A stretch of 64,000 nucleotides of DNA from positions 1 through 64,000 of the forward strand of contig NZ_BOOC01000042.1 in assembly GCF_016863035.1 (NCBI RefSeq), read 5' to 3'. Under the pieces are notes generated by a model. That model made no database searches and had not been told where the DNA came from. It worked only from the letters and a program-made list of their open reading frames with translations. Positions 3,363 through 61,251 of this stretch are shown here, piece after piece. The stretch's first letter is position 1. Each line of letters starts with the position of its first letter. Source of the DNA: Microbispora corallina (GTDB lineage: Bacteria > Actinomycetota > Actinomycetes > Streptosporangiales > Streptosporangiaceae). Both the position numbers and the translations under genes were made by a program.

Positions 3363-4885
3363 GCCGGCCTTCCTTCCATGATCATGTCCAGGATGTGGTG
3401 TTCGTCGAGGTCTCGGGCGTCGCTCTGGTGAATCAGGCGCCCCTCCCGGATGACCAGCACCCGGTCCGCCAGGCCGAGCACCTCGGGCACCTCGCTGGAG
3501 ACCAGCAGCACCCCGACACCCTCGTCGGCCAACTTCCTGATTACGGCGTACAGCTCCGCCCGCGCCCCGACGTCCACCCCCCGGGTCGGCTCGTCGAGCA
3601 GCAGCAGCTTGCGGCCGTTGATCAGCCAGCGCGCCAGTACCGCCTTCTGCTGGTTGCCTCCGGAAAGGTTCTTGATCGGCCGGTCCAACTGAGGGGGGCG
3701 GATTCCCAACTCCTCGACCTGCCGCCTGGCGTCGGACGCCTCCCGGCTGCGATTCATCCAGCCGAACCTCGCGTAGCGGTCGAGGCTGCTCAGGGAGATG
3801 TTCCGCATGACGCTCTGGTCGAGCAGCAGCGCCTGGGCTTTGCGCTCCTCAGGGGCCAGGCCCATGCCGGCCCGGACGGCGCGGCTGGGGCTGCCGCCGC
3901 GGACCGGTGAGCCGTTCAGGATGACGCGGCCGTCGGCGCGGCGGGCTCCGTAGATCGCCTCGACGATCTCCGAGCGGCCCGATCCCACCAGCCCGGCCAG
4001 TCCGACGATCTCTCCGGCCCGCACGGTGAACGACACCTCGTCGACCCGGCCGGGGACGGTCAGTCCCTCCACCCGCAGGACCTCGGGACGGCCGTCGTGG
4101 CTGCCGGGACGGGGCCGGGGCGGGAAGACATGCTCGACGTTGCGGCCGGTCATCAGCGAGACCACCTGTGAGGTGGGCGTCTCCTTGGCCGGCAGTCCGA
4201 CCGCGACCGTGCGCCCGTCCTTCAGCACCGTCACCCGATCGCCGATCTCGCGGATCTCCTCCAGCCGGTGCGAGATGTAGATCACCGCCACGCCCTGCGC
4301 GGTCAGCTCCCGGATGATGCGGAACAGGTTGGCCACCTCGTCGTGGGCCAGGGCCGCCGACGGCTCGTCCATCACGATCAGCCGCGTGTCGTACGAGAGG
4401 GCCCGTGCCATGCTCACCACCTGTTTGGCGGCCGGCGACAGCCGGCCCACCTCCGTCGTGGGGCGGATCTCGCCGTGGCCGAGCCCGGTCAGCAGTTCCC
4501 GGGTGGCCCGGTTGACCTCGCTCTGACCGACGAACCCCAGACGGGCCGGCTCGTGACCGAGGAAGACGTTCTCGGCCACGCTCAGTCCGTCGACCAGGTC
4601 CAGTTCCTGATAGATCGTGGAGATGCCGAGCCGGATCGCGGCCGTCGGACCAGTCAGGCGGACCTCCTGGCCGCCGAAGACGATGGTGCCCTCGTCGGGC
4701 TGGTGTGCCCCGGCCAGCACTTTGATCAGGGTCGACTTGCCCGCGCCGTTCTGGCCGAGCAGGCAGTGCACCTCCCCGGCGCGAACGTCGAGGTCGACGC
4801 CGTCCAGAGCGCGCACGCCAGGGAACTGCTTGACGATTCCTCGCATCATGAGGAGAGACGCCGAGTCGGATGATGACGGCGGCAC
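3359..4885 (-). CDS. Sugar ABC transporter ATP-binding protein (two ATPase domains)
   Basis: A fused double ATPase of the RbsA/MglA type, about 508 residues. Two complete nucleotide-binding domains follow each other. The first has a Walker A GQNGAGKST and a Walker B VMDEPSAAL. The second has the degenerate Walker A expected of this family (GLVGSGRSE), the signature NLSGGNQQKA and Walker B LLDEPTRGVD. The reading frame stays open to 4951, but the GTG at 4885 is the better start: GGAGG lies 5 bases before it and the protein then starts as other family members do. It is the first gene of the uptake operon and lies behind a 344-base leader holding four inverted repeat copies. Confidence 0.92.
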
Positions 4886-5229
4886 AGGAGCCTCCAGGGG
4901 ATCTGGGTGCGTCTGGTGTCCCGCCCGCCTGACGGCGCCGCTGGGCACCACCGCGGCGGCACCGAGGTCGGCGTCAACGGTGCCGATGCGGTTACGGCGG
5001 CCGATCAGGCGGGCGGGACGTTCTGGTGGAGGGGAAGGGGCATGGTGGGGGATCCCGCCCGCCTGACCGCATGCCTCATGGCCGCGGCACTCGGGATGGG
5101 CGGGGGTGACGAGGGACGCGGAACAGGACGGTCAGGCGGACGGGACGTCGAGATCGGGCGGGGGGACGTTGCGGGCGGGAGGCAGGGGTTACGGTGAGTG
5201 AGACGTGCGGGTCATGGTGGTTGCCGCGA
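4886..5229. other. Intergenic leader of the sugar-uptake operon
   Basis: A 344-base non-coding stretch between the ROK regulator gene and the ABC ATPase gene, both on the minus strand. It probably holds the promoter of the transport operon. It contains four copies of a 14-base word arranged as two inverted pairs (separate entry). No convincing reading frame on either strand. Confidence 0.6.
4919..5145. repeat. Four alternating inverted copies of TCCCGCCCGCCTGA
   Basis: The 14-base word TCCCGCCCGCCTGA occurs at 4919-4932 and 5053-5066. Its exact reverse complement is at 5005-5018, and a reverse complement with one mismatch is at 5132-5145. The order is forward, reverse, forward, reverse, so the first two and the last two can each fold into a stem with a loop of about 65-72 bases. 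The pairs are spaced about 130 bases apart. They may be operator sites, attenuator-like structures in the mRNA leader, or copies of a small palindromic repeat family. Confidence 0.75.
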
Positions 5230-6519
5230 TCACTTGGGATCTCGGATCGCGATGGCTGTGGGGTCGGACAGAGCACGTTCGACGACGACGCCGGCGGCCC
5301 CACGTGAGGCGGCGCCGAAGCCGAGGTCGGAGGCGGCGAACCGGAAGCGGTCACCGGCGCCGGTCATGTCCAGTCGCGCCATCTCCTCCTGGGCGGCGGG
5401 GATGAGCCGGTCGGCGAGCTTGGCGAAGTAGCCGCCCAGCACGATCACCCGTGGGTTGAAGAGATTGATCAGCGTCGCCGCCCCGAATCCGAGCCAGCGG
5501 CCCACCTCGGTGACGGCCGCGTCGACGCGCGGGTCTCCTTCGGCCTGCCGCTGTTCGATCTCGGCCAGCCGCTCCTCGGGATCGCGGACGACCTGCGGGC
5601 CCATGCCGTACGCGTGGTCGGGGGTGGCCATGCGGACCAGCGCGGCCAGCCCGACCTTGGTCTCCCAGCAGCCGACGCGGCCGCAGCGGCACGGCTCGCC
5701 GGACGGATCGACCATGACGTGGCCGACCTCCCCGGCGAATCCGTCCGCTCCACCGAGCAGCCGGCCGCCGGAGATGATGCCGCCGCCCACGCCCACCTCG
5801 CCGGTGAGGTAGATCAGGTCAGGGGTGCCCGCCGCGGTGCCCGAGGTGTACTCGGCCAGAGCGGCGAGGTTGGCGTCGTTGTCCACCGTGATGGGGATGT
5901 GCCCGGCGATGTCGGCGCGGGACAGCCGCTCCGCCACCGCCACCCCGCGCCAGCCGAGGTTCGGGGCGACGACGACGGTGCCGGTGCCGGCGTCGATGAG
6001 ACCGGGGACGGCCACGGTGATCCCGGCCGGCGTGACCCCGAGCCGGTCGAGGTCGGCGACGGTCTTCTCGACCATGCGGGCCATCTCGTCCAGTGAACGA
6101 TCAGGGCCGGATCCCATGGCGTCGAAGCCGATGCGCCGGTCGATGAGCACTCTGCCGGCAAGATCGGTTGCGATGGCGGCGATGTAGTCGACGTTGACTT
6201 CCATGCCCAGGGCGCCGACCCCCGAGCCGTCCAGGACGAGCGCGACACTTGGGCGGCCGACAGAGCCGGCGTGCTGCGGTCCCGTCTCCTTGACCAGCCC
6301 GCGTGCCTGCAACTCGCTCACCAGACTGGTGACGGTGGTCTTGTTCAAGCCGGTGGCGACGGCGACGGCCGACCGGGAGCATGGGCCGTACGTACTCACG
6401 TGACGCAGCACCAGAGCGAGGTTGGAACGGCGCACACTGGCCTGGTCCGCGGCGACTCCCGCGGACCAGCACCGACTCATCGAGTCGGTCGTCTGGCCGT
6501 CGCTCCTGCCGTGGTCCAC
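5230..6519 (-). CDS. ROK family transcriptional regulator (NagC/XylR type)
   Basis: A 429-residue regulator with an N-terminal winged helix-turn-helix (about residues 30-90) and a C-terminal ROK sugar-kinase-like domain. The zinc motif CRCGRVGCWE and the ATP/sugar-site DND motif are present. The GTG at 6519 has AAGGAG placed 4 bases upstream, which fixes the start. It lies immediately upstream of the ABC transport operon on the same strand and is divergent from a close paralogue at 6762. By family precedent it represses sugar genes until a sugar or sugar phosphate binds. Its operator is probably among the palindromes in 6521-6725. Confidence 0.9.
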   Translation of the reverse strand: MDHGRSDGQTTDSMSRCWSAGVAADQASVRRSNLALVLRHVSTYGPCSRSAVAVATGLNKTTVTSLVSELQARGLVKETGPQHAGSVGRPSVALVLDGSGVGALGMEVNVDYIAAIATDLAGRVLIDRRIGFDAMGSGPDRSLDEMARMVEKTVADLDRLGVTPAGITVAVPGLIDAGTGTVVVAPNLGWRGVAVAERLSRADIAGHIPITVDNDANLAALAEYTSGTAAGTPDLIYLTGEVGVGGGIISGGRLLGGADGFAGEVGHVMVDPSGEPCRCGRVGCWETKVGLAALVRMATPDHAYGMGPQVVRDPEERLAEIEQRQAEGDPRVDAAVTEVGRWLGFGAATLINLFNPRVIVLGGYFAKLADRLIPAAQEEMARLDMTGAGDRFRFAASDLGFGAASRGAAGVVVERALSDPTAIAIRDPK

Positions 6520-56237: not shown

Positions 56238-56612
56238 TCAGGCCGTAATTACGGGGACGTCGTACTTGGGAATGTGACCGTCCCTGGTGACCAGGGAGAG
56301 CCCCTCGCAACGGGCCTGCGCGACGAGTAGGCGATCGAAGGGGTCGCGGTGGAGGAGAGGGAGCCTTCCCGCTTCGATGGCATGGTCGAATCGGACGGGC
56401 AACTCCCGAAATTCGCTGTCGCGTATGCGTTCTACCAGGTCATCGGGTGCCGCGAGCTTGCCGATGCTCTGCTTGATAGCCACCTCCCACAAGGTGGCGG
56501 GGCTGACGAAGACATCCGGCTCCTCGTCGATCATGCTCTTGATCTCGTTGGCGAGCGTGGGATCGTCGCTCAACCACCACAGGACGACGTGTGTGTCGAG
56601 GAGAATTCTCAC
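56238..56612 (-). CDS. PIN-domain toxin (VapC-like)
   Basis: A 124-residue PIN endoribonuclease: D6 in LLDTHVVLWW, an acidic residue in ATLWEVAIKQ (near E43), the FDRLLVAQA segment with its Asp (near 92) and a C-terminal TRDGHIPKYDV. The three to four acidic residues needed for metal-dependent RNA cleavage are present. The GTG start overlaps the antitoxin stop (GTGA, 56609-56612). This subtype (WW.LSDDP) often pairs with a Phd-type antitoxin, as here. Confidence 0.9.
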   Translation of the reverse strand: MRILLDTHVVLWWLSDDPTLANEIKSMIDEEPDVFVSPATLWEVAIKQSIGKLAAPDDLVERIRDSEFRELPVRFDHAIEAGRLPLLHRDPFDRLLVAQARCEGLSLVTRDGHIPKYDVPVITA

Positions 56613-56866
56613 GGCATCAAGCCGAACTCGTCAGCGATCGCATCGTTGACCTCAGGCGAGTCCCAGTCGTCAGCGAGACGGAGCACTCCTTTCAAGGAGC
56701 CTCTGCCGTGCCGGTTCACCTTCGTGGGGAACGGAATGACCTTGGCAACGGGGCGTCCGGCGCGGCTGATCACGATCTCTTCGCCGTGCTCGACCCGCTC
56801 GATGATGCGCGACAGGTTCGTCTTCGCCTCGTGGATGTTGTACTGCTCGGAAGCGCCCTCAGACAT
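56609..56866 (-). CDS. Phd/YefM family antitoxin
   Basis: An 85-residue antitoxin with the conserved N-terminal DNA-binding part (YNIHEAKTNLSRIIERVEHGEEIVISRAGRPVAKVIP) and a flexible C-terminus that would wrap the PIN toxin encoded immediately after it. Its promoter contains repeats at 56876-56894, the probable autoregulatory operator. Confidence 0.9.
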   Translation of the reverse strand: MSEGASEQYNIHEAKTNLSRIIERVEHGEEIVISRAGRPVAKVIPFPTKVNRHGRGSLKGVLRLADDWDSPEVNDAIADEFGLMP

Positions 56867-57082: not shown

Positions 57083-59275
57083 TCAGCGCAGTGGGGGGAC
57101 GGCGTTGCGGGCGCGGTCGAGGGCGAGCACCGACCACCAGGTGCCGCCGATCGGGTCGACCTGGTGGTAGACGGGGTCCTCGAGGCCGTGGCCGCCCCGG
57201 GTGCACTGGCCGTTGGACTGCTCGGGGGAGCGGAGCCACAGGAACGCGTCGGCCAGGTCACTGCCGGTGTCGGTAGTGGGGCGGGGGCCGATGCCGCGGC
57301 CCGGGGGGTTGCACCAGATCTGCGGGTCGGCGTACTTCCCCTGGGGCGGGGTCCAGCCGCCCTTGCCGTTGCGGCTGGTGTCGACGACGAAGTGGGTCAG
57401 GGGCGCACCGGCCGGTACGGCGTCCAGTTCGGCGCCGGTGCAGGCGCTCCCGGCATTGTCCATCTTCAGATAGAGGCAACGGGAGAGGCTCTCGCCGTAC
57501 CGGAGAAGCCCGTCGGTCTCCTGGTAGTCCGCGGCGTTCAGGTAGAAGCCGTCGGCTCGCTTCACCCCGGCCTTCACAAGCCTGCCGGCGATCTCGACGA
57601 GGCTGGGCCAGCCCTCGATGCCGCCGTCGAGGTACACGGCCGTGCGCGGAAGCCTCTTCAGACGGTCCACCGCGTAGCCGAGCTCGCGGTAGCGCTCGGC
57701 CGCGCCCGCCTCGCCCCCCGACGAACAACTGTCCGAGCCGGGAAGTCTGGTCAGGCTGTTCGGTTCCAGCACGACCACCGCCCGCGCCTGCCCGATGCCT
57801 TTCGCCACCCGGTCGATCCAGGCACGGTAGGACCGCTCGTCCGGCTCCCCCCATTGGGAGCAGTCCTTCATCGGGACGTGATCGGTCACGAACACGGGAA
57901 CGGCGTGATGGGCGGTGGCCAGCCGTACGGTGGACGCGACCGTGCGCCCGGCCTCGGCGGCCGGCAGGTTCAGGTTCACGGGATGCGGCACCGCGGCCAG
58001 GGCGCGCATTAATGCGGCGTCGGCCTTCCTGCCCCGCGCGTCCCAGACGTCCGCCTGCCGCCGCGCGTCCGGATCCGGCGCGTACGCGAGCCGGACGCCG
58101 GGCTCGCGCAGCGGGTTGCCGCCCCCGCCCGCCGGAGCCGGCGACGCGGCCGGTGACGCGGCCGGTGCCGGCCCCCCGGAGGCCTCAGGGGCGGTGGGCG
58201 TGGGCCTCCCGGAGACCACGGCGGCCGAGGAGGTCGCGGACGCCGAGGTGTGCGTGTCGCCGCCGGAGAGCCCCACCGTGGCCACCGTCGCGATCACCGC
58301 CAGCCCGGCCGCCCCGGCCGCGGCCCCGGCCAGCAGCCTGCGGCGGTCTCTCCCGCCGACCGGCGGTTCCGGAACCGGGGACGAGCCGGTGATGGCGTCC
58401 AGGATCTCCTGCACGGCCGGCCGTTCGGCCGGGTCCTTGGCGAGGGCGCGTTCCACCAGGCGGCGCAGCGGCCCGTCGAGGCCCGACAGGTCCGGCGCCG
58501 CGTTGAGGATCCGGTGGAGCACGACGGGGAGGGACTCACCGCCGAACGGCGCGCGGCCGGTGCCCGCGTACGCGATCGTGCCAGCCCAGGCGAAGACGTC
58601 CGATGCGGGCGTGAGCGCGCCGCCCGAGAGTTGCTCGGGCGACATGAACGACGGCGTGCCGACGATAGCGCTGCTCGTCTGGCCGTCCACGTCCGCCAGG
58701 TGGGCGACGCCGAAGTCGATCACCTTGGGCCCGACGGGGGAGAGCAGGACGTTGCCGGGCTTCAGGTCGCGGTGGATGATCCCGGCCGCGTGGATGGCTT
58801 GAAGGGCGACGGCGACGCTGACCGCGAGCCCGTCCAGGCTGGAGCCGCGCAGCGGGCCCTCCCGCTGGACGGCCTCCCGGAGGGTCGGCCCGGGCACGTA
58901 CTCGGTGACGAGGTAGGCGGTCTCGCCGTCCGTCTCCGCGTCGAGCACGGCGGCCGTGCAGAAGCGGGCGACCCGCTTGGCCGCCTCCACCTCCCGGCGG
59001 AACCGGCGGCGGAAGCCGGGGTCGGCCGCGACCGCGGGGTGGAGGAGCTTGACCGCCACGCGCGTCCCGTCGGGCGCCTCGGCCAGATAGACGACGCCCA
59101 TCCCACCCTGGCCCAGCCTGCGCAGCAGCCGGTACGGCCCCACCTGGGCAGGGTCGTCGGCGGTCAGGCCATCCGGGCCGAAAGGCGGCGGACCGGGCCG
59201 ATCCCCGTGGGATAAACCCGGGCCGCCGTCGTCGTTGCCGGTGCCCCCGTCGCCGCTCACGCTGGTACGCGACAT
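57083..59275 (-). CDS. Membrane Ser/Thr protein kinase fused to an extracellular GH6 domain
   Basis: A 730-residue protein. Residues about 47-298 are a Hanks-type kinase with glycine loop LGQGGMG, K76 in VAVKLL, HRDLKPGN (168-175) and IDFG (186-189), so the kinase looks active. A transmembrane helix lies at about 314-337, then a Ser/Ala/Pro/Thr linker to about 388. Residues about 390-725 form a glycoside hydrolase family 6 domain: PMKDC (468-472), LEPNSL (503-508), VYLDGGIEGW, FVVDTSRNGKGGW and WCNPPGRGIG. The position equal to the GH6 general acid (Asp in EPDSL) is Asn506, and the later ESDG motif reads QSNG, so cellulose hydrolysis is unlikely. The outer domain may sense cellulose-type sugars. 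Confidence 0.9.
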   Translation of the reverse strand: MSRTSVSGDGGTGNDDGGPGLSHGDRPGPPPFGPDGLTADDPAQVGPYRLLRRLGQGGMGVVYLAEAPDGTRVAVKLLHPAVAADPGFRRRFRREVEAAKRVARFCTAAVLDAETDGETAYLVTEYVPGPTLREAVQREGPLRGSSLDGLAVSVAVALQAIHAAGIIHRDLKPGNVLLSPVGPKVIDFGVAHLADVDGQTSSAIVGTPSFMSPEQLSGGALTPASDVFAWAGTIAYAGTGRAPFGGESLPVVLHRILNAAPDLSGLDGPLRRLVERALAKDPAERPAVQEILDAITGSSPVPEPPVGGRDRRRLLAGAAAGAAGLAVIATVATVGLSGGDTHTSASATSSAAVVSGRPTPTAPEASGGPAPAASPAASPAPAGGGGNPLREPGVRLAYAPDPDARRQADVWDARGRKADAALMRALAAVPHPVNLNLPAAEAGRTVASTVRLATAHHAVPVFVTDHVPMKDCSQWGEPDERSYRAWIDRVAKGIGQARAVVVLEPNSLTRLPGSDSCSSGGEAGAAERYRELGYAVDRLKRLPRTAVYLDGGIEGWPSLVEIAGRLVKAGVKRADGFYLNAADYQETDGLLRYGESLSRCLYLKMDNAGSACTGAELDAVPAGAPLTHFVVDTSRNGKGGWTPPQGKYADPQIWCNPPGRGIGPRPTTDTGSDLADAFLWLRSPEQSNGQCTRGGHGLEDPVYHQVDPIGGTWWSVLALDRARNAVPPLR

Positions 59276-59376: not shown

Positions 59377-60108
59377 TCAGCGCGACGCCGCGAGCAGGGC
59401 GGCGTTCTCACGCTCCAGCGCCTTGACCCCGCCCGCGGCCCAGCCCGGCGCGAGGGACGCCGACATGGGATCGGGAAAGATCTCCTCCTCCCCGGCGTCC
59501 ACGCCGTCGAAGATCGCCTGGGCGACCGAGGCCGGAGCGGCCTTCGGTATCGGGAGGTCGCGGGTCATGTCGGTGTCCAGCGGACCGGCCAGCACGGCGT
59601 GCACCCGGACACCCCGCGGCGCGAGCAGCGCGCGCAGGGACTGGGTGAGCGAGAACGCCGCGGCCTTGGAGATCGAGTACGCCGGCATGACGGGTACGGA
59701 CGCGAGGGACGCCAGCGACAGCACGTTGACGACGGCGCCGCGCGCCTGGGTCACCTGCGGCAGGAACGCCTGGGTGACGGCGTACGGGCCGAAGAGGTTG
59801 ACCGCCAGGTGCCTCTCGAGCACCGCGGGATCGCCGAGGTCGTCGTAGACGGACTGGCCGGCGTTGTTGACCAGGACGTCGAGCGCGTCGACGCTCTTCG
59901 CGGCGGCCCGGATCCCCGCCTCGTCGGTCACGTCCAGGTTCAGGGTCGTGACACGTTCGTCGGGGTGCGCCAGCGGCTGCCGCGTCCCGGCGTACACGCG
60001 GGCGGCGCCTCTGCGCAGGGCCTCGTCGACCAGCGCGCGTCCGAGGCCCCGGTTGGCACCGGTCACCAGGACGGTCCTGTTGGCGACGCTGTTCTCCGAC
60101 ATCGGCAT
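59377..60108 (-). CDS. Short-chain dehydrogenase/reductase
   Basis: A 243-residue classical SDR: TGANRGLG nucleotide motif (about 17-24), NNAG near residue 86, and the catalytic Ser and YSISK. The ATG at 60108 has GGAG about 10 bases before it; ATG 60102 is also possible. The substrate is not known. It is divergent from the SigG-type sigma factor, which may drive its expression, since sigma factors of this group are often beside oxidoreductase genes. Confidence 0.9.
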   Translation of the reverse strand: MPMSENSVANRTVLVTGANRGLGRALVDEALRRGAARVYAGTRQPLAHPDERVTTLNLDVTDEAGIRAAAKSVDALDVLVNNAGQSVYDDLGDPAVLERHLAVNLFGPYAVTQAFLPQVTQARGAVVNVLSLASLASVPVMPAYSISKAAAFSLTQSLRALLAPRGVRVHAVLAGPLDTDMTRDLPIPKAAPASVAQAIFDGVDAGEEEIFPDPMSASLAPGWAAGGVKALERENAALLAASR

Positions 60109-60164
60109 GGTGTCGTTCTCCGTTCGGTTCCGACTGTTCGGGCTTGCACTCGGACAGACAGGGC

Positions 60165-60186
60165 GACCGCCCGAAACCGGGCGGTC
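60165..60186. promoter_or_regulatory. Hairpin between the SDR and sigma factor genes
   Basis: A perfect 9-base-pair stem GACCGCCCG/CGGGCGGTC with an AAAC loop, in the 147-base divergent intergenic region. It could be an operator or a structured mRNA leader of the sigma gene. Confidence 0.5.
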
Positions 60187-60255
60187 CCAGGGCGACCTGT
60201 TCCGGCGGCCGGCGGTGTCGGTATCGGGGAGACGATGAAAACGGAGGTGACGCCC

Positions 60256-61251
60256 ATGTCGGCCGAACTGCTCAACCGGGCGCGGGCCGGCGACCGCGAC
60301 GCGTTCGCGGCGCTGGTCGAACCGCACCGCGCCGAACTGCAGGTGCACTGCTACCGCATGCTCGGATCGCTGCAGGACGCCGAGGACGCGCTGCAGGATG
60401 TGCTGCTGTCGGCCTGGGCCGGTCTGAGCGGGTTCGAGGGGCGGTCGTCCGTCCGCACGTGGCTCTACCGCATCGCCACCAACCGGTGCCTCAACATGCT
60501 GCGGACGTCGGCGCGCCGGCCGATGGCCGCGACCCCGCTCCCGGCCCCGCCGCCGGAGCCGTCCCGCCTGGGTGACACGCCGTGGCTTCAGCCCTATCCC
60601 GATCTCCTGCTCGACGGCCTGCCCGACCAGGCGCCGGGGCCCGAGGCCCGGTACGAGTCCCGCGAGGCGATCTCGCTGGCGTTCGTGACCGCCGTGCAAC
60701 TGCTGCCGCCGAACCAGCGCGCGGTCCTGCTGCTGCGCGACGTGCTCGGGTACCGGGTCAGGGAGGCCGCCGATCTGCTCGGGCTGACCGAGGACGCCGT
60801 GGCGAGCGCCCTCAAGCGCGCCCGGGCCACGATGGACGCCGCCCGCTCGGCCGACCGCCCGCCGCCGCCCGCGGGCGGGCCGGAGGAGCGCGCGCTCGCC
60901 GAACGCTTCGCCGCGGCCTTCACCGGGCACGACGTGCAGGCGCTCGTCGCGTTGATGACCGACGACGTGTGGGTGCGGATGCCCCCCCTGCCGTTCGAGT
61001 ACCGCGGGACGGAGGCCGCCCACCGGTTCTTCACCGCGATCGGCGCGCACCGGCAAGGGATCGTCCGGATGGAGCCGGTCCGGGCGAACGGCCAGCCGGC
61101 GTGGGGCCAGTACGTCCGCGATCCGGTGACCGGTGTGCTGCGCTTCACGGGGCTCCTCGTGGCCGGCCTCGCCGGCGACCGGGTGTGCGCGATCACGCAC
61201 TTCGAGACGACCGTCGGGCCGTACTTCGGCCTCCCCCGCACCCTCGCCTAG
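60256..61251 (+). CDS. RNA polymerase sigma factor, SigG/TIGR02960-like with SnoaL domain
   Basis: A 331-residue ECF-type sigma factor. Region 2 (about 5-75) contains LGSLQDAEDALQDVLLSAW and [17 protein letters not shown]. The WLQPYPD linker is typical of this family. Region 4 (about 140-190) contains LPPNQRAVLLLRDVLGYRV. A C-terminal SnoaL-like domain (about 210-325), with MEPVRANGQPAWG, regulates such factors in place of an anti-sigma protein. The ATG at 60256 has GGAGG 8 bases before it and is preferred to ATG 60235. Confidence 0.92.
   Translation: MSAELLNRARAGDRDAFAALVEPHRAELQVHCYRMLGSLQDAEDALQDVLLSAWAGLSGFEGRSSVRTWLYRIATNRCLNMLRTSARRPMAATPLPAPPPEPSRLGDTPWLQPYPDLLLDGLPDQAPGPEARYESREAISLAFVTAVQLLPPNQRAVLLLRDVLGYRVREAADLLGLTEDAVASALKRARATMDAARSADRPPPPAGGPEERALAERFAAAFTGHDVQALVALMTDDVWVRMPPLPFEYRGTEAAHRFFTAIGAHRQGIVRMEPVRANGQPAWGQYVRDPVTGVLRFTGLLVAGLAGDRVCAITHFETTVGPYFGLPRTLA

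Follow-up and report, generated by a model that had tools for sequence, protein, structure and literature searches.

The window, by which we mean the whole 64-kb stretch of DNA analysed from the 8.36 Mb genome of Microbispora corallina, carries a gene for a transmembrane Ser/Thr kinase with a pseudo-GH6 ectodomain (Table 1). The kinase domain has the glycine loop, the VAVK lysine K76, the αC Glu, HRD at 168-170, N175, DFG at 187-189 and the Glu of the APE motif. The Glyco_hydro_6 match scores 162.9 bits in Pfam against a cut-off of 27 and extends over profile positions 11-301 of 305, and this half of the protein contains six conserved Cys residues (472, 517, 600, 612, 655 and 691); the six on the GH6 side are conserved across the family, and the kinase side has one Cys. 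The two domains are separated by a hydrophobic helix that directly follows the residues GRDRRR, and as this RRR stands before the helix, the positive-inside rule predicts an N-in topology with the GH6 half outside the cell. The preliminary description of this DNA had proposed an active-looking Hanks kinase joined through one transmembrane helix to a full-length GH6 domain, and each of these elements was located. The best solved relative of the protein is PDB 1up0 ('putative cellulase Cel6 / CelA1', E 5e-38), which we take to be a protein of M. tuberculosis.

The neighbouring genes in the window encode an AMP-binding enzyme, a PIN/Phd pair, a short-chain dehydrogenase and a sigma factor. The genes of the PIN-domain toxin and the Phd/YefM antitoxin (56241-56866, reverse strand) lie directly downstream of the kinase gene. 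The sigma factor has a SnoaL-like C-terminal domain and is encoded near the oppositely directed short-chain dehydrogenase gene (59377-61251), presumably an ECF41-type layout.

Table 1. Features of the kinase gene and of its product in the window (Cel6A, T. reesei enzyme used as reference).
Feature	Position	Strand	Basis
Transmembrane Ser/Thr kinase with pseudo-GH6 ectodomain, 730 aa	57083..59275	-	single open frame
Hanks-type kinase domain, residues 48-293	58397..59134	-	Pfam Pkinase 130.2 bits; motif positions
Transmembrane helix, residues 314-336	58268..58336	-	mean hydropathy 2.03 over 19 aa
GH6 domain, residues 416-695, outside by inferred topology	57191..58030	-	Pfam Glyco_hydro_6; six Cys
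Asp471, putative base (Cel6A D175), kept	57863..57865	-	alignment; motif position
Asn506 codon, general-acid position (Cel6A D221), within EPNSL 504-508	57758..57760	-	alignment; motif position
PEQSNG 684-689: Q686 = Cel6A E399, N688 = D401; R682 before it = K395	57209..57226	-	

The active site was mapped by aligning the family sequences to Cel6A of T. reesei; the core sequence used for this enzyme was identical to PDB 3cbh across 365 residues. In Cel6A, D221 is the catalytic acid and D175 the putative base, D401, E399 and K395 bond with the sugars in sites -1 and -2, S181 helps position the attacking water, and a D175A mutant retains 2-3% activity (PMC6091422). At the positions of D175, D221, E399 and D401, by which active enzymes were recognised, the window protein has D471, N506, Q686 and N688 and does not classify as active. 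The preliminary description had read EPNSL as a loss of the general acid and QSNG as an altered ESDG motif; the alignment places both changes at the expected catalytic and sugar-binding positions, with no other Asp at the acid position. N506 is common to all eight Microbispora sequences compared and is thus not a sequencing error. Besides, H266 and N305 of Cel6A correspond to I553 and D583, Y169 is also replaced, no residue aligns with S181 in the window protein or in 76/84 of the kinase-GH6 fusions described below, and the loop after Asp471, where S181 lies in Cel6A, has 3 residues fewer than that of the relative L139. The equivalents of W367, R353, D263 and W269 are retained, and RNGKGGW and WCNPPGRG are present at 635-641 and 654-661. 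The view that the sugar-contacting motifs had been kept holds in part: W367, R353 and W269 remain, but K395, E399, D401, H266, N305 and Y169 are replaced. As the equivalents of D221, E399, D401, K395, H266 and N305 are replaced and S181 is gapped, the domain has very probably lost its hydrolase activity and had its sugar site rebuilt, and the loss of the polar -1/-2 contacts together with H266, N305 and Y169 makes an unchanged cellulose or cello-oligosaccharide site unlikely. An AlphaFold2 model of the ectodomain, built on an alignment of eight sequences (the window protein and seven others from Microbispora), was set aside at a mean pLDDT of 42.4.

With the ectodomain as query, 13 of 15 genomes of the same genus gave a match at E<=1e-38. 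Among the matches listed from searches of 297 genomes within the family and 345 within the order, a close subfamily (E<1e-80) was separate from ordinary GH6 domains (1e-20 to 1e-40), two partial matches excepted, and in a class-wide search of 394 genomes the matches outside the family of the window reached 2e-76 and were stand-alone. The 113 stretches fetched contain at least 84 frames in which a kinase is fused to the GH6 domain, distributed over 79 loci, 68 genomes and 12 genera, all Streptosporangiaceae; the architecture, for which the preliminary description had recommended a wider search, is therefore not a one-off. Stand-alone members of the subfamily belong to the genera g38 and g67 of the same family and to g87 of another family (f20). 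Two contig-edge or partial matches (G313:C490 and G271:C443) and a fragment in L093 were left out of the family set, L148 was dropped from the stand-alone counts as a contig-edge fragment that has Ser in place of the acid and may be a truncated fusion, and L201 is included in the stand-alone alignment counts (33) and absent from the CebR count (32). Because similarity to the domain in the window decided which sequences entered the family set, we also examined 40 GH6 genes outside the subfamily, hand-picked among the matches listed and mostly long frames (471-1289 aa), and a kinase was present in the same frame in none of them.

The kinase motifs are intact in 83/84 fusions, the exception being L100, in which the fusion gene is split across two frames. 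The inter-domain helix lies above the hydropathy threshold of 1.6 in 81 fusions and scores 1.39-1.55 in the other three. Two adjacent kinase-pseudoGH6 copies were found in each of L091, L092 and L093, the second copies having outer domains with 71-73% identity to that of the window protein, and L093 has an additional third, partial copy. At L239 a separate kinase gene (3649-5565, forward strand) lies directly 3' of a GH6 gene in which the EPD and ESDG motifs are present. In the M. corallina genome itself, the C-terminal or outer part of a kinase at L250 (2279-4312, reverse strand) is an SBP_bac_3 solute-binding domain; this is one of nine kinases scanned in that genome and suggests that binding domains have been recruited there in other kinases too.

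The combination of D175, D221 and D401 was found in 0/84 fusions as against 33/33 stand-alone relatives. Taken singly, Asp is retained at 175 in 57/84, at 221 in 2/84 and at 401 in 11/84 fusions, Glu at 399 in 5/84, His at 266 in 2/84 and Lys at 395 in 0/84. The acid position is occupied by N, S, G, A, Q, K or E in 82/84 fusions, with no consistent substitute, and the patterns at 175/221/399/401 include DSFN (12), DNQN (7), EGTS (5) and ANMD (4). The dead state is marked by no single substitution, different residues having been lost in different sub-clades, and as Asp persists at 221 and 401 in a few members, no one ancestral substitution accounts for it and the catalytic decay may have been stepwise or repeated. 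L116 (g62) has Asp at both 221 and 401, together with Ala at 175 and Met at 399, and it is one of nine fusions with Asp at 401 and 175 lost (Ala in eight, Gln in one), the opposite of the pattern in the window protein. Other parts of the domain are kept: the six Cys and the positions of R353, W367, D263 and N302 are invariant in 84/84 fusions, and 95 positions are conserved at >=95% in the 61 non-redundant fusions. Among 119 positions conserved at >=90% in close active relatives, those of the active site were lost in 8 of 14 cases as against 10 of 105 elsewhere (Fisher p=1e-4). This comparison covered 61 fusions and 11 stand-alone proteins without near copies, counted the gapped S181 column as lost and used a list of active-site residues based in part on PMC6091422.

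A tree of 67 rows was built with six active-site columns removed and was read as unrooted. In it a single branch with support 100/99 sets all 48 fusions apart, which corresponds to one change, and the same result was obtained without three long or oddly composed rows. In 12 Microbispora pairs dN/dS was 0.11-0.40 for the GH6 part, 0.09-0.33 for the kinase and 0.43-0.89 for the linker; the GH6 value exceeded that of the kinase in 12/12 pairs, up to about threefold, and was below that of the linker in 12/12. Both the GH6 and the kinase parts are under purifying selection. The loss focused on the active site, the retention of the Cys residues and of R353, W367 and D263, and the low dN/dS together signify a maintained pseudoenzyme ectodomain on an active-looking kinase. 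The absence of the catalytic triplet from every fusion and the purifying selection agree with the earlier suggestion that a hydrolase was recruited as a non-catalytic outer domain.

The connection to cellulose is indirect and comes from ancestry, through CebR boxes at the nearest active relatives, and from gene neighbours in two genera. The operator of the repressor CebR has the consensus TGGGAGCGCTCCCA according to PMC5332605. Such boxes lie upstream of the active relatives in 14/14 cases in g38, 3/3 in g67 and 3/9 in g87, and in 21/32 overall, compared with an average of 0.02 of the 32 stand-alone relatives for permuted control palindromes. At <=2 mismatches TGGGAGCGCTCCCA had no match in the 64-kb window, and no box was found upstream of any of the 84 fusions, which gives no clear sign that CebR controls the fusion gene. 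In the genera g45 and g59 the fusion belongs to a cluster consisting of a LacI-family gene, a second kinase, the kinase-pseudoGH6 gene, a GH48 and a GH9 gene, seen by BLAST at 5/5 loci (L104, L119, L120, L131 and L137); Pfam gave GH48 with CBM2 in L104 and L131 and GH9 with CBM3 in L104. A CebR box marks the start of the GH48 gene at 5/5 loci and that of the LacI gene at 4/5, the LacI gene of L119 running off the stretch. GH48 and GH9 relatives were absent from the fetched stretches around the other 74 fusion loci. In the M. corallina genome a GH48 gene and two further GH6 genes were found, and one of these two, L202, has a CebR box.

Within g4, GH48 was present in 31/34 genomes with the fusion and in 13/17 without it, which is uninformative (Fisher p=0.20); this tally was made by hand from a search that covered 80 of the 97 genomes first listed, with G254 left out because a contig end truncates the match there. 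Clustering of gene neighbours was discarded because it was swamped by overlapping reading frames in the high-GC DNA, and neighbours were instead determined by a GC3-based gene call at 19 of the 79 fusion loci and by Pfam on chosen genes. Away from the GH48/GH9 clusters they vary and include leuA (L143, by Pfam), a GNAT gene (L143 and L102) and era (by eye, in g4, g62 and g39), as well as genes related to other wall or sugar polymers such as NlpC/P60 (L112), a polysaccharide deacetylase (L124) and an arabinofuranosidase C-terminal domain (L107).

At the level of sequence, the architecture, the missing catalytic residues, the single fused clade and the purifying selection are established. On this basis we consider it likely that the protein is a single-pass receptor-like kinase in which the outer domain, once a GH6 cellulase, is kept as a non-catalytic binding module for sensing a ligand outside the cell. 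A GH6 lineage fused to a kinase would have lost hydrolysis and would then have been retained for binding. An extracellular ligand, most likely a β-glucan or another partner related to cellulose metabolism, may bind the remodelled groove and alter dimerisation or kinase activity inside the cell, upon which the kinase would phosphorylate intracellular targets; signalling from groove to kinase is proposed by analogy with the PASTA kinases and wall fragments, as treated in PMC6213207. Reading the kinase-pseudoGH6 protein as a cellulose sensor is a plausible hypothesis, and the chance that the natural ligand is derived from cellulose is somewhat below even. The fullest form of this idea, in which a one-time fusion of a CebR-regulated cellulase gave a kinase that senses cellulose or cello-oligosaccharides directly outside the cell and sets cellulase expression via phosphorylation, beside the inside sensor CebR and with sub-clades tuned to different glucans, is speculative and on balance rather unlikely.

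The dead domain could also be a receptor for something other than plant cellulose, for example a glucan that the bacterium itself makes at its tips or in its wall, a different polysaccharide or a protein, for which the old -1 site would have been rebuilt. Streptomycetes make a tip glucan near a GH6 gene. The polar -1/-2 contacts are lost and the W367, R353 and D263 positions invariant, the residues at the dead positions vary by fusion group (DSFN, DNQN, EGTS, ANMD) as if specificities differed, and the neighbours at L112, L124 and L107 concern other polymers, all of which favour such a ligand. However, GH48 and GH9 cellulase genes adjoin the fusion in two genera and both family and CebR box mark the nearest enzymes as cellulases, and we regard a ligand of this kind as a tenable, if tentative, alternative. 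If instead the outer domain were a structural module that binds no sugar and serves for spacing or as a dimerisation platform, the signal being something else, the drift of the catalytic positions among N, S, G, A, Q and K and the retention of the fold residues and cysteines would fit; a 300-residue domain with groove aromatics is hardly needed for mere spacing, though, and the groove positions W367, R353, D263 and N302 are invariant in 84/84, which makes this role improbable.

Residual catalysis through another residue or an Asn relay, or a changed reaction, has a very small probability. It could appeal to the Asp at the D175 position, which persists in the window protein and in 57/84 fusions, to the Asp at 221 in 2/84 and at 401 in 11/84, and to the 2-3% activity of the T. 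reesei D175A mutant (PMC6091422), but the acid position is non-Asp in 82/84 with no consistent substitute, and the S181 column is gapped in 76/84. The partial extra copy in L093 and the frame-split copy in L100 are what a decaying or chance fusion without function would leave behind; this explanation is contradicted by dN/dS values well below 1 in both domains of the 12 Microbispora pairs and by the 84 members in 12 genera, and its probability is close to nil.

To our knowledge, few bacterial Ser/Thr kinases have a known outer ligand. For the kinase-pseudoGH6 proteins the origin of the outer domain points to a small number of candidate ligands and the active relatives are ready controls, so that ligand and signal are directly testable. 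On the speculative reading as direct cellulose sensors, they would represent a hydrolase-derived glycan receptor kinase in bacteria, within the Streptosporangiaceae. They would also be a clean case of an enzyme turned receptor, with the catalytic loss tied to one fused lineage, and would give protein phosphorylation a part in controlling cellulose breakdown by soil actinobacteria. Among the matches listed from the open-access literature on such fusions and on dead-hydrolase sensors, titles and the starts of abstracts contained no kinase-GH6 fusion. Proteins of this type may well be annotated somewhere already; the kinase-pseudoGH6 family is a real, coherent and apparently undescribed variant of the receptor-like bacterial kinases.

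Among known systems, the GH6 cellulases, such as Cel6A of T. reesei and T. fusca and Cel6 of M. tuberculosis, share the family (162.9 bits; PDB E 5e-38) and the R353, W367 and D263 groove residues with the window protein. It differs from them in that the positions of the acid, E399, D401, K395, H266 and N305 are replaced and the domain is tethered to a kinase. On the kinase side, the closest named model by score is that of the AfsK-type kinases of Streptomyces (NF053615, 218.8 bits), a match far under the 1300-bit cut-off that spans residues 36-429, that is, the kinase, the transmembrane segment and the linker. A GH6 domain fused to a different protein is also present in the tunicate cellulose synthase CesA, at the C terminus and with the D221 position lost as in the window protein, according to PMC7464555, although that fusion is of an animal cellulose synthase and contains no kinase.

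The PASTA kinases PknB and PrkC have a cytoplasmic Hanks kinase, one transmembrane helix and an outer domain that binds cell-wall fragments (PMC6213207), a layout that the window protein would share by its predicted topology. The outer part of the window protein is a dead glycoside hydrolase, whereas theirs consists of PASTA repeats, for which no Pfam match was obtained in the window protein; the PknB_PASTA model covers its residues 48-287 only, with 187.4 bits against a cut-off of 450. A further parallel is provided by the RsgI anti-sigma factors of Clostridium thermocellum, whose outer CBM or GH domains detect plant polysaccharides and control cellulosome genes, as described in PMC12203970 and PMC3413522. 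The RsgI N-terminal anti-sigma domain is not among the five Pfam families in the window protein, the N-terminal part of which is the kinase. The window protein would resemble RsgI as a membrane sensor with a GH outer domain, but RsgI acts through release of a sigma factor by proteolysis, the GH named for it is GH10 rather than GH6, and it belongs to another phylum, whereas the window protein is a kinase.
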